From the NCBI GenBank assembly GCA_947570135.1, contig CANOTP010000004.1, forward strand, positions 124,001 through 188,000: a stretch of DNA of 64,000 bases, given 5' to 3'. Origin of the DNA: an uncultured Candidatus Melainabacteria bacterium. Its GTDB lineage: Bacteria; Cyanobacteriota; Vampirovibrionia; Gastranaerophilales; Gastranaerophilaceae. This document shows positions 2,101-16,364 of the stretch, piece by piece. The position numbers were made by a program, and so were the translations under genes. The notes under the pieces are model-generated. The model did no database searches. It saw nothing but the letters and a program-made list of their open reading frames with translations, and was not told the DNA's origin. Numbering within the stretch: the stretch's first letter is position 1; each line of letters begins with the position of its first letter.

Positions 2101-2166
2101 AGAGGAGAGAAAAGTATGAAAAACCAAACTATGACTAGAAATTCGGGGGGGGTAACTTTTCCTGCT
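2101..2166 (+). repeat. Prepilin leader cassette, copy 1 (G8 run)
   Basis: A segment of about 66 bases is shared with 4843-4908 and 15299-15361. It contains AGGAGAGAAAAG-T-ATG, about 10 codons (MKNQTMTRNS), a G-run (here eight G, 2145-2152) and TAACTTTTCCTGCTT. In the ATG frame it encodes the 17-residue peptide MKNQTMTRNSGGVTFPA and then TAG (2167-2169). The downstream prepilin frame is reached only by a -1 shift (or one extra G) at the G-run. Confidence 0.85.
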
Positions 2167-2876
2167 TAGCGCAGCGCGCTTTCACATTAGCTGAAACATT
2201 AATAACTCTTGGCATAATCGGAATTGTTGCAGCGATGACTATTCCTACTCTTATTGCAAATTATCAAAAACATGTTACAGTTCAAGATTTAAAAAAGACC
2301 TTTGCAATGTTTCAAGAAGCTGTAAAATTATCAGAAGTTGAAAATGGTGAGATGTCAGGCTGGGAATTCCCTGATATTTCTGATTCATCAGTAGAAACGT
2401 TTCAAAATTTTACTGATAAATATCTGGCTCCTTATTTAAAAGTTTCAAATAAGTACAAGATATATGAATATTACGGTCCGTTTTCATTGACTAATACTCG
2501 AACACATTATTATCTGTCAGCTAAGCATTATCCGAATCAATTGATGAACGGAGTTATTTTTTCGTTTTTTAATCAAAATAGACTTTTCGGAATTTGGGTA
2601 GATTTAAATGGTAACAGAAAACCAAATATGATGGGAAAAGATGTTTTTGTGTTTAAGTTTAATATCCAAAAGGGTGCTCTTGAAATGGAAGGAATGCACT
2701 GTGCAAGAGAGGTAATTGCGACAAATAAACAAGCTCATTGTATCGACGGGGATTTTGTGCAATATTTCTATGATATCCACTGTCAAAAGATTGATGGTAA
2801 CCGCTATGCAGGAGGGTCATGCGGGGCATTAATTCAAAAGGACGGTTGGACTATCAGCAAGGATTATCCATGGTAG
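2116..2876 (+). CDS. Type IV prepilin-like protein, leader frame offset at G-run
   Basis: The prepilin helix is complete: A|FTLAETLITLGIIGIVAAMTIPTLIAN, followed by a C-terminal domain of about 190 residues with VDLNGNRKPNMMGKDVF. However, its frame contains no ATG, GTG or TTG between the upstream in-frame TAG (2137-2139) and the hydrophobic helix. The only good start, ATG 2116 with AGGAGAG, is in another frame. A -1 slip at G8 (reading GGG GGG then GGT AAC) joins them and gives MKNQTMTRNSGGGNFSCLAQRAFTLAE as the leader. The same offset occurs in two paralogues. The gene may be phase-variable, rely on transcriptional or ribosomal slippage, or be silent. Position -1 of the cleavage site would be Ala rather than Gly. 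Confidence 0.7.
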
Positions 2877-4842: not shown

Positions 4843-4908
4843 AGAGGAGAGAAAAGTATGAAAAATCAAGCTATGACTAGAAATTCGTGGGGGGTAACTT
4901 TTCCTGCT
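4843..4908 (+). repeat. Prepilin leader cassette, copy 2 (TG6 variant)
   Basis: Nearly identical to copy 1 over TATAATAA...AGAGGAGAGAAAAGTATGAAAAA and onward. The run reads TCG-T-GGGGGG-TAAC here. The ATG frame gives MKNQAMTRNSWGVTFPAFS and then TAA at 4915-4917. The prepilin frame is entered by the same -1 shift as in the other copies. It can also be entered from the GTG at 4887, created by the T in the G-run. Confidence 0.85.
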
Positions 4909-5747
4909 TTCTCCTAAGTAACATTTTTACAGTCACTCTGAATTTAATTCAGAGTCTGTCAATGGCAATAAAAAATAATATTGATAGATTCCGTGTCGGT
5001 GCACGGAATGACAATAAAAAAGGTTTCACATTAGCAGAGGTTCTGATTACTCTTGGCATAATCGGAATTGTTGCAGCGATGACTATCCCAAGTTTGTTAA
5101 CCAATATTCAAGACAGGCAGTTTAAGTCGATGTATAAAAAGTATTTTTCAACATTATCGCAGGCTATGTTAAGAAATTATGAAGACACGGGTGAAACTTT
5201 CAGTTATGCTGATTGGCGGGAAATGCCGTTTTTTATATGTAATGTGCAAAAGTATATGAAAGTTCAGTCAAGCGGAATTGACTGTTCTAAAGTTTACAAT
5301 AGAGCAGAAGCGTTTTGGGGGACTGATTCTTGGCCGAGAACGGAAAACAGTGATAAATTATGGCATAGTGGAGCTCAATGGTATGATAAAAAGGGTAAAC
5401 CAATGTACTTAAATGGCGGATACTTGCCATTAACTTTTGTATTACTTGATGGTACTATGTTTAATTTTAATTGCTATAATTCAATTTTACTTGATGTTAA
5501 CGGCAAAAATGGTCCGAATGTTGTCGGGCGCGATATTTATTTTTTACGCTTTAAGCGGGATAGTGCCGCACCTGTTGCATCAATTCAAGTGAACGAAGAG
5601 TATCAAACCAATGCATGTACCCAGGGAGGTTCTAACTCAACAATAAAACTGACAAAAGATAATTATGTAGAAGATTGTTTAAAAGGAACAGGCTGGGGTG
5701 CTCGATTTTATATATGCAGCAATCCAAATAAATTAAATCTTTATTGA
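4858..5747 (+). CDS. Type IV prepilin-like protein with repeat-derived leader
   Basis: The prepilin core is KKG|FTLAEVLITLGIIGIVAAMTIPSLLTN, then a domain of about 220 residues with LDVNGKNGPNVVGRDIYF and several cysteines. The frame is open upstream from the GTG at 4887 through an unusually long leader of about 47 residues, much of it encoded by a dispersed palindromic repeat (4932-5013). The strong SD and ATG at 4858 are in the other frame and need the -1 shift at TG6. ATG 4962 (MAIKNNIDRF) inside the leader is also in frame but has no SD. The 3' end overlaps the convergent gene at 5733 by 15 bases. Confidence 0.75.
4932..5013 (+). repeat. Dispersed palindromic repeat inside prepilin coding leader
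   Basis: The unit begins GTCACT and ends GGAATGACA like that at 1429-1522. Its left arm pair is ACTCTGAATT/AATTCAGAGT (4935-4955) and its right arm pair ATTCCGTG/CACGGAAT (4988-5009), with GTCAATGG and ATTGATAG between. The whole unit is open in the prepilin frame and encodes part of the leader just before KKGFTLAEV, as if the repeat had inserted into the gene. Confidence 0.7.
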
Positions 5748-14490: not shown

Positions 14491-15249
14491 ATGTCAAGAA
14501 TTGATTCATTCAAACACGCGTTAGAAGAAAAACGTGCAGTTAAAGTTATTGCAGGTATTGATAACTTTGATATCGAAAATATTAAAAAAGTTGTATCTTC
14601 AGCAGAAACAGCTCACGCTACTGCTGTTGATATCTGTGCAAGAGAAGATATTATTAAAGAAGTTCGTTCAATGACAGAACTTCCTGTATTTGTTTCTTCA
14701 ATTGTACCGTCAGAATTGGTTAAAGCGGTTGATTTGGGTGCTGATGCTATTGAACTTGGTAACTTTGATGTTCTTTACAAAAAAGGTATGTCATTTGATG
14801 CTAACGATGTTTTATCTTTAGTTCAAGAAACTAAATCATTGTTGGGTGACAGAGAAGTATTTTTCTCAGTTACAATCCCGGGTGAAATCCCTACAGCTGA
14901 CCAAATTGCTTTGGCTGTTAAATTAGAATCTATGGGTATTGATCTGATTCAAACAGAAGGTCACTATTCTCAAGATGCTAATCTATCAGGTGCCAGAGCT
15001 TTAATGGATAGAGCAGAATTAACAATTTCAAATACAATTGAACTTGTAAGAAATGTAGAAATGCCGATTATGACAGCAACAGGTATTAACCCTACAACTG
15101 CTCCGTTTGCATTTGCGGCAGGCGCATCAGCTATCGGTTGCGGATCTTGTGTTAACAAATTAACTTCAACTATTTCAATGATTGCTACAATTTCATCATT
15201 GGTTGAAATTGCTAACAAAAATGCAGTAAAAATTGCTGAAATGGTTTAA
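14491..15249 (+). CDS. ycf23: Ycf23-like protein (DUF561, TIM-barrel fold)
   Basis: 252 residues. The N-terminal AVKVIAGIDNFDIENIKKVVSSAE, HATAVDICAREDIIKEV and GADAIELGNFDVLY match the Ycf23 family, which is found in cyanobacteria and in plastid genomes of red algae. The barrel-like pattern of strands and the GHYSQDANLSGA and ATGINPTTAPFAFAAGASAIGCGSCVNKL segments resemble phosphate-binding TIM barrels. The biochemical function is unknown to me; the fold suggests an aldolase- or epimerase-like reaction. AAGGAG lies 8 bases before the ATG, and it has its own promoter and terminator. Its presence is one of the stronger pointers to a cyanobacterial relative. Confidence 0.8.
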   Translation: MSRIDSFKHALEEKRAVKVIAGIDNFDIENIKKVVSSAETAHATAVDICAREDIIKEVRSMTELPVFVSSIVPSELVKAVDLGADAIELGNFDVLYKKGMSFDANDVLSLVQETKSLLGDREVFFSVTIPGEIPTADQIALAVKLESMGIDLIQTEGHYSQDANLSGARALMDRAELTISNTIELVRNVEMPIMTATGINPTTAPFAFAAGASAIGCGSCVNKLTSTISMIATISSLVEIANKNAVKIAEMV

Positions 15250-15262
15250 TTTTAAAATACTA

Positions 15263-15291
15263 AAAAGTCACCCTTTCCGGGTGGCTTTTTA
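15263..15291 (+). terminator. Rho-independent terminator of ycf23
   Basis: AAAAGTCACCC-tttcc-GGGTGGCTTTTT forms an 11-bp stem (one G-U pair) followed by T, 13 bases after the ycf23 stop. The next SD site begins about 8 bases further on. Confidence 0.85.
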
Positions 15292-15298
15292 TTTATAT

Positions 15299-15361
15299 AG
15301 GAGAGAAAGTATGAAAAAGCAAGCTATAATTAGAATTTCGGGGGGGGTAACTTTTCTTGCT
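15299..15361 (+). repeat. Prepilin leader cassette, copy 3 (G8 run)
   Basis: Shares AGGAGAGAAA-GT-ATG, the G8 run (15340-15347) and TAACTTTTCTTGCTT with copies 1 and 2. The ATG frame encodes MKKQAIIRISGGVTFLA and then TAG at 15362-15364. More divergent than the other two copies (several codon changes), yet the frame offset to the prepilin is unchanged. Confidence 0.8.
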
Positions 15362-16137
15362 TAGAAACTGACTGTCGCGGAAAAGAGTTAGCAGTTGGTA
15401 GCAAAGTACACCGTACGGTGAGCACCGCGTTTACGTTAGCAGAAACATTAATAACCCTCGGCATAATCGGTATTGTAGCCGCACTTACTATTCCGAATAT
15501 GATAGCAAAAGTTTCCGAAAAACGTGATTCTGTCAGGCTTAAAAAAGTTTATGCATCTTTAACTCAGGCTTATAAATTATCGCAGGAAGAATTTGGGGAT
15601 ATAAAGCCTTATTTGGAAGGTTATGGCGATAAAATTGATTGGTATGACAATGCTTCTCATGAATATTTCGGTGATTATTTTATGCACTTTTATAACGGTG
15701 TTCAAAGAAATAAAAAATATTCCTCAAGTTGGAAAACTTCTTGGAAAAACGGAGCATCTATCTACCATGTTAGTGATAGTGCTTCTTTCGCGATTTATAA
15801 TACTTTAGACGGTGCAGCGTTTATTTTCAGAGTTCTGCCGAATTATTGTACATCGGCTTTTGGTTCATTTGAATCAGGGGTTAGTACTTGCGGTGAAATT
15901 TTTGTAGATTTACATTCACCTCTTAAAACTACCGATTTTGGGACTGCTAACACAAATCGTGTAGTCGGTAAAAATGTATTTCTTTTTCATGCAACAGCAG
16001 AAGGTATAGTCCCTGCAGGAACTTCAAATGTTGGAAAATCACCGTTATCCTGTTATACAAGTGCATACTCCTGTGCGGCGTGGGTTTTGAAGCAGGATAA
16101 TATGAATTATCTTCATAAAACAAATTTGGGCTGGTAA
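15311..16137 (+). CDS. Type IV prepilin-like protein, leader frame offset at G-run
   Basis: The prepilin core is STA|FTLAETLITLGIIGIVAALTIPNMIAK, followed by a Tyr/Ser-rich domain of about 210 residues with VGKNVFLFHA and CYTSAYSCAAW near the end. The SD-preceded ATG 15311 is in the wrong frame. A -1 shift at G8 continues GGNFSCLETDCRGKELAVGSKVHRTVSTAFTLAE, which is open throughout. A GTG at 15418, nine bases before TTT-ACG, could start a very short leader but has no SD. The motif that reads DVNG-PN in its relatives is replaced by VDLHSPLKTT. Position -1 is Ala. It is ended by the perfect terminator at 16136. Confidence 0.7.
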
Positions 16138-16174
16138 AAAGGTCGACCGAAACAAAGTTTCGGTCGACCTTTTT
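16136..16174 (+). terminator. Rho-independent terminator of prepilin gene
   Basis: AAAAAGGTCGACCGAAAC-aaa-GTTTCGGTCGACCTTTTT is a perfect 18-bp stem overlapping the stop codon. A-tract and T-tract allow it to act in both directions. Confidence 0.9.
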
Positions 16175-16183
16175 AGTTAACAT

Positions 16184-16211
16184 AAAAAAAAGACCTTGTT
16201 AATTCAAGGCC
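16184..16211 (-). terminator. Minus-strand terminator without an assigned gene
   Basis: Read on the minus strand: GGCCTTG-aattaa-CAAGGTC followed by eight T. No minus-strand gene lies upstream of it within 150 bases. It may end a short unannotated RNA transcribed from the AT-rich stretch 16215-16350, which also contains the palindrome CTTTATATA-tt-TATATAAAG (16237-16256). Confidence 0.5.
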
Positions 16212-16364
16212 TATCCGTTTAAATAAGAAGAGAGAGCTTTATATATTTATATAAAGTATTCTCAAAACAAAAAATTGCTAAATTTACTGTTTAGAATTTA
16301 CAAAAGTTAATATTTTTATTTTTTTTGTGTTAATATATATGTAAAACTAAATGAGTTGGTGAAA

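Follow-up and report, generated by a model that had tools for sequence, protein, structure and literature searches.

Within the window analysed here (the whole stretch of 64,000 nucleotides, C4:124001-188000 of the 1.9 Mb genome G000, which is in 16 contigs), three type IV pilin-like genes are preceded by a short leader reading frame that does not continue into the pilin. A reading made from the sequence alone had proposed that the common phase of these loci reflects either programmed slippage at a run of Gs or an off state reached from a shared ancestor. The question raised by the third and most diverged of them, copy 3, is whether and how a pilin that lies out of frame with its own leader comes to be made, and whether its offset is the property that has been kept.

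Leaders and pilin genes in the window

The geometry first described for copy 3 is borne out (Table 1). The zero frame from its ATG passes through the tract and ends after 17 codons, the pilin lies in the -1 frame, and that frame is open for the 27 codons of the linker, from GGT to the FTLAE helix at 15430. The encoded protein (FTLAETLITLGIIGIVAALTIP...) is type IV pilin-like and 235 aa long (15430 to 16137). Its frame is closed by a stop codon 5' of the tract; GTG at 15418 is the only common start codon between tract and helix, there being no ATG or TTG before the helix in this frame. The ribosome site of this ATG is a good one, and about 20 nt separate the Shine-Dalgarno region from the hairpin terminator of the aldolase-like gene before it.

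Table 1. Features of the three pilin loci, in coordinates of the window
Feature	Position	Strand	Remarks
Copy 3 Shine-Dalgarno region, GGAGAGAAA	15300..15308	+	from sequence; kept in 40 own-genome matches
Copy 3 zero-frame leader ORF, MKKQAIIRISGGVTFLA then stop; OFF product	15311..15364	+	ATG 15311; 17 codons, through G8
Copy 3 G8 tract	15340..15347	+	in-frame length would be 9
Copy 3 pilin frame, -1 relative to ATG	15334..16137	+	linker GNFSCLETDCRGKELAVGSKVHRTVSTA, then pilin
Copy 1 zero-frame leader ORF, MKNQTMTRNSGGVTFPA then stop	2116..2169	+	ATG 2116
Copy 1 G8 tract	2145..2152	+	
Copy 1 pilin frame, -1	2139..2876	+	231-aa pilin from 2181
Copy 2 zero-frame leader ORF, MKNQAMTRNSWGVTFPAFS then stop	4858..4917	+	ATG 4858
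Copy 2 pilin frame	4881..5747	+	helix from 5025, 240 aa; offset -1 as in copy 3

The three loci do share the -1 offset, as had been claimed. They were also said to share one G8 run, which is correct for copies 1 and 3, whereas in copy 2 the run is interrupted (TCG TGG GGG GTA), a T being followed by six Gs at 4889-4894. Two G8 runs were found in the window, against 0.23 expected by chance at its GC content of 35%. The leaders of copies 3 and 2 are 89% identical over 65 nt. The pilin frame of copy 1 has no start codon of its own, and the linker of copy 2 contains an ATG (4962) that is supplied by an inserted dispersed repeat. We called type IV pilin N-termini by motif together with weak NCBIfam matches; with the Pfam N_methyl model (PF07963), copies 1 and 2 score above the cut-off of 21.2 bits and copy 3, at 18.7 bits, falls below; in all three the helix is intact and position 5 is E.

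Repeats of the kind inserted in copy 2 are imperfect palindromes, reading ...LNLIQ.LSM...RFRVGARND in translation, and are dispersed (4917-5024 and 1433-1520 in the window; leaders L018, L022, L040, L114 and L126). They sit between tract and helix and are open in the pilin frame, and some of them bring start codons. In some pilins (L055, L072 and L278) the start is present twice, FTLAEGATHV... preceding a further FTLAEVLITLG, which looks like the insertion of one prepilin N-terminus ahead of another. A gene of EF-hand-like sequence (L078) carries an in-frame G9 run 19 codons after its ATG and may be another poly-G switch.

Extent of the leader family and the frame of its pilins

A 67-base leader query matched 40 places in the genome, two of them merely short weak matches, and the reverse query returned the same 40. 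With diverged leaders added by a search for runs of G7 and longer, the genome has about 45 poly-G leaders among its 122 matches to the pilin N-terminus model. The leader is present in at least nine relatives. It was seen in GTDB genomes under the titles Melainabacteria or Gastranaerophilales and in congeneric species, which supports the Gastranaerophilales assignment suggested from sequence alone. Outside the genus, 383 genomes sampled from 52 genera of the order yielded the leader in a single additional genus. We searched viral contigs for leaders and found none. Contigs tend to break in or beside a leader (the ends of C1, C2, C3 and C15 and the starts of C5 and C15 in this genome, and many contigs of the relative G014), so that MAGs truncate some leader pilins and the count for the family is too low. 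The JAMPCZ01 records (L203 and others), from a MAG titled Muribaculaceae, carry Gastranaerophilales leaders, and that title is probably wrong. The contig of L223 has the same coordinates as contig 28 of G043, and the leader was counted as G043.

The copy 3 pilin site (15249-16356) lies between the aldolase-like gene and a gene for a PfkB-type kinase. A syntenic orthologue was found in G014 only, with 67% identity and a contig that ends before the leader. The pilin of G034 at the same site is unrelated and starts in the ordinary way, and the other genomes examined are mostly without a pilin there. Judging from this site in the relatives, pilin genes come and go at intergenic positions.

Leader pilins are also strongly oriented. 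Of the 38 leader pilins in this genome whose N-terminus was scored, 37 are on the plus strand of their contigs, compared with 31 of 83 pilins without a leader (Fisher p 3e-11); pilins without a leader favour the minus strand of the contigs. Across all genomes, 64 of 80 loci have flanks whose GC skew is positive in the orientation of the leader, suggesting a leading-strand position for the tracts. Poly-G seems to be tied to replication orientation.

To learn how general the offset of the three window loci is, we considered 111 leaders from 10 genomes, with start codons assigned by rule. Relative to the leader ATG, the pilin is in the -1 frame in 77, in the +1 frame in 27 and in frame in seven, with run lengths of G6-G11 and one case of G13. 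Constancy of the offset across homologues, the point on which programmed slippage had been proposed, is therefore not found, and a constant -1 offset is ruled out by this wider sample. The in-frame share is far below the expected one third (binomial p 9e-12, an optimistic value given that the loci are related).

Tract lengths were grouped by the length of the sequence upstream of the tract. When that length modulo 3 is 2, so that runs of 6 or 9 would be in frame, there are 36 leaders with G8, five with G9, three with G7 and one with G10. In class 1 (in frame at 7 or 10) G9 is found 34 times, G8 twice, and G6, G10 and G11 once each; class 0 (in frame at 8 or 11) has 18 G9 and six G10, with one each of G6, G8 and G11. 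Thus, in classes where one of the lengths 8 and 9 would restore the frame, leaders take the other. We fitted a model in which length depends on a genome-specific preference and a frame effect, with p-values that are again optimistic for related loci. The in-frame state is avoided 15-19 fold (p about 1e-6 to 1e-7), the preference for -1 over +1 is not significant (p 0.13-0.18), and a rule allowing -1 only fits worse than avoidance of the in-frame state (p 0.002-0.003). Selection appears to act on the out-of-frame state as such, whether -1 or +1, and given a preferred length of 8-9 together with this avoidance, the constant -1 offset looks like a by-product. In G014, for example, pilins behind a G9 tract are in +1 if 30 bases precede the tract and in -1 if 31 do. 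Five genomes have an almost uniform -1 offset over different upstream lengths. A second class of leader has a zero-frame stop right after the run (GGG GGG TAG/TAA) and its pilin in +1; it is represented by L071, L074 and L075, and also by L189, L192 and leaders of G014.

Variation in G count, which the sequence-only reading had raised as a further question, is seen among homologous leaders, with counts from G6 to G13. Even among leader pairs having 0-1 substitutions, the count differs in 8 of 19; two leaders at contig ends, L030 and L038, are identical from the ATG onward except that one has G8 and the other G9. By these comparisons the tract changes faster than its flanks. Orthologous pilins were found in different phases, which goes part of the way against that reading. 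The pilin of L021 in our genome (G9, in frame, with a GTG start) has an ortholog in G034, L124 (G8, -1), with 83% identity and dN/dS of 0.08, so ON and OFF alleles are both present among homologues. A second ortholog pair, L184 (G9, -1) and L223 (G11, +1), is 86% identical, and L018 (G7) and L088 (G9) are 71% identical.

The proteins are nevertheless maintained. In all 28 pilin pairs compared, dN/dS is 0.07-0.34, and purifying selection extends along the entire pilin body, which indicates that the proteins matter despite nearly all consensus alleles being out of frame. Full-length pilins are found at 59 of 59 loci with the -1 offset, 12 of 13 with +1 and two of three in frame. The contention that the phase is not the product of random decay is upheld by the intact -1 genes and by these dN/dS values.

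Probable phase variation and its alternatives

We consider it fairly probable that these loci undergo multi-locus phase variation by poly-G and are mostly OFF, a reading that fits the data better than a programmed -1 shift does. The tract would act as a switch set within the signal-peptide part of each gene. The conserved ATG would always start translation and give the positively charged start of a prepilin leader. With G9 in the geometry of copy 3, the ribosome would read MKKQAIIRISGG-G-NFSC...-FTLAE... and produce a prepilin of the usual plan, which would go on to be assembled; with G8 it would terminate after about 17 codons, without pilin. Slippage of DNA polymerase on the tract would often alter its length, reversibly within the population, and each cell may express a small, changing subset of the roughly 45 pilins. 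The consensus genome would then represent the majority allele at each locus, OFF almost everywhere. Of the two readings originally offered, an off state is the better, as one common to a family of leaders; programmed slippage with a constant offset does not survive the 77, 27 and 7 leaders in the three frames and the changes of phase between orthologues.

Some points count against phase variation. Lengths of 8-9 are towards the lower limit for poly-G tracts that switch at a high rate. A switch left to drift freely would be in frame more often than the 6% seen, and selection for OFF must therefore be assumed. The near-uniform -1 offset in five genomes would also be predicted by a programmed -1 mechanism.

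A less probable explanation, although one that retains some weight, is that slippage is programmed at the level of expression, the ribosome shifting -1 on G GGG GGG or RNA polymerase adding a G, so that a small, constant share of pilin comes from every locus and in-frame alleles are avoided since they would overproduce it. The -1 offset is indeed the commonest, several genomes pair G8, G9 or G10 with the corresponding upstream length, the zero-frame reading GGG GGG GTA is well placed for a -1 slip, and pilin bodies are conserved though almost all are out of frame. A ribosomal -1 slip cannot, however, serve the 27 loci in +1, whose pilins are equally intact; the -1-only rule is the poorer model, and phase changes between orthologues. 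Folding of the sequence 3' of the tract at 60 loci revealed no conserved stem-loop or other RNA structure, with a mean z of -0.39, or 0.19 for the 21 loci with short linkers. Transcriptional slippage is harder to exclude, as it could serve both offsets.

The Neisseria pilS copies are donors for recombination into an expression site, and the out-of-frame genes here could likewise be a silent archive, never translated themselves. Nearly all copies are out of frame, and leaders and helices resemble each other more than the bodies do, as such an archive would have it. We regard this as improbable, however: every copy retains a ribosome site and an ATG of its own, purifying selection covers the whole body, and a single expression locus was not identified. 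A comparison of 30 genes gave no conserved 3' repeat that could be shared for cassette exchange, only six weak tail pairs.

Ordinary frameshift decay, or sequencing or assembly error in G runs, is very improbable. A few loci are broken (L005, L010, L013 and L015), but the -1 genes are full length without exception and under the constraint described above. Elsewhere in the genome, long genes contain runs of G7-G9 without loss of frame, among them G8 in an activating-enzyme-like gene (L079) and G8 in a frame of 530 codons (L081), so wholesale base-calling error is not the cause. A sequencing artefact is ruled out by these control runs and by independent MAGs, which show the same state. Least credible of all is internal initiation from a start in the linker (GTG 15418 in copy 3, ATG 4962 in copy 2), with the leader ORF a mere upstream peptide. 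An ATG or GTG is present in certain linkers that carry inserted repeats, but start codons are lacking between tract and helix at the majority of short-linker loci, copy 1 among them, and the -1 frame is stopped 5' of the tract.

Precedents and meaning for the Gastranaerophilales

The closest precedent for phase variation of this kind is Bifidobacterium breve. In strain UCC2003 the sortase-dependent pilus loci bbr_0113 and bbr_1889 are annotated with a G-tract length that leaves two ORFs out of frame and the pilus OFF; replication slippage fuses the ORFs, turning the pilus ON in a fraction of cells, and in more of them in mice (PMC9187656). In both systems a gut commensal has a G tract inside its first pilus gene, and slippage restores the frame in B. 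breve as it would here. The B. breve case concerns two loci with Gram-positive sortase pilins and tracts of G10-G12, turned ON by loss of one G, whereas here there are about 45 type IV pilin-like loci with one common leader and G8-G9.

The Neisseria opa genes carry their repeat switch in the signal-peptide region. Like the pilins described here, they are a phase-variable multigene family of surface proteins in which each copy has its own switch (PMC5953494), although the repeat is CTTCT, the loci number up to about 12 and the products are outer-membrane proteins. In Neisseria pilC a poly-G tract inside the reading frame switches the gene (PMC5953494), again a homopolymer in a type IV pilus gene acting on/off by frame, but there one or two pilus-tip/retraction genes with G9-G20 are involved, and here dozens of copies of pilin subunits. 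Programmed -1 frameshifting and transcriptional slippage, as in dnaX and IS elements (PMC3711429, PMC5009743), similarly reach a downstream out-of-frame ORF via a slippery run. Those systems keep one offset, often with a stimulator, whereas we see both offsets, several lengths and no stimulator. The mechanism is known from Neisseria pilC and Bifidobacterium pili; what is new is the scale, the common leader cassette, the OFF bias and the orientation on one strand.

The Gastranaerophilales (Melainabacteria) are uncultured gut relatives of cyanobacteria, and we found no report in the literature of phase variation in this group. Tentatively, the genome may hold a bank of about 45 pilin genes behind one portable poly-G leader on the leading strand, nearly all OFF, with a few displayed per cell; or slippage at the RNA level may hold dozens of them at a fixed low level. 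If phase variation is the correct reading, a set of some 45 pilins, each with a switch of its own, would rank among the largest surface repertoires known to us that are run by a single mechanism, and consensus MAGs would mask most of the organism's pilin genes as out-of-frame fragments. Such a repertoire would bear on attachment, on DNA uptake and on the avoidance of phages or antibodies by the Gastranaerophilales.
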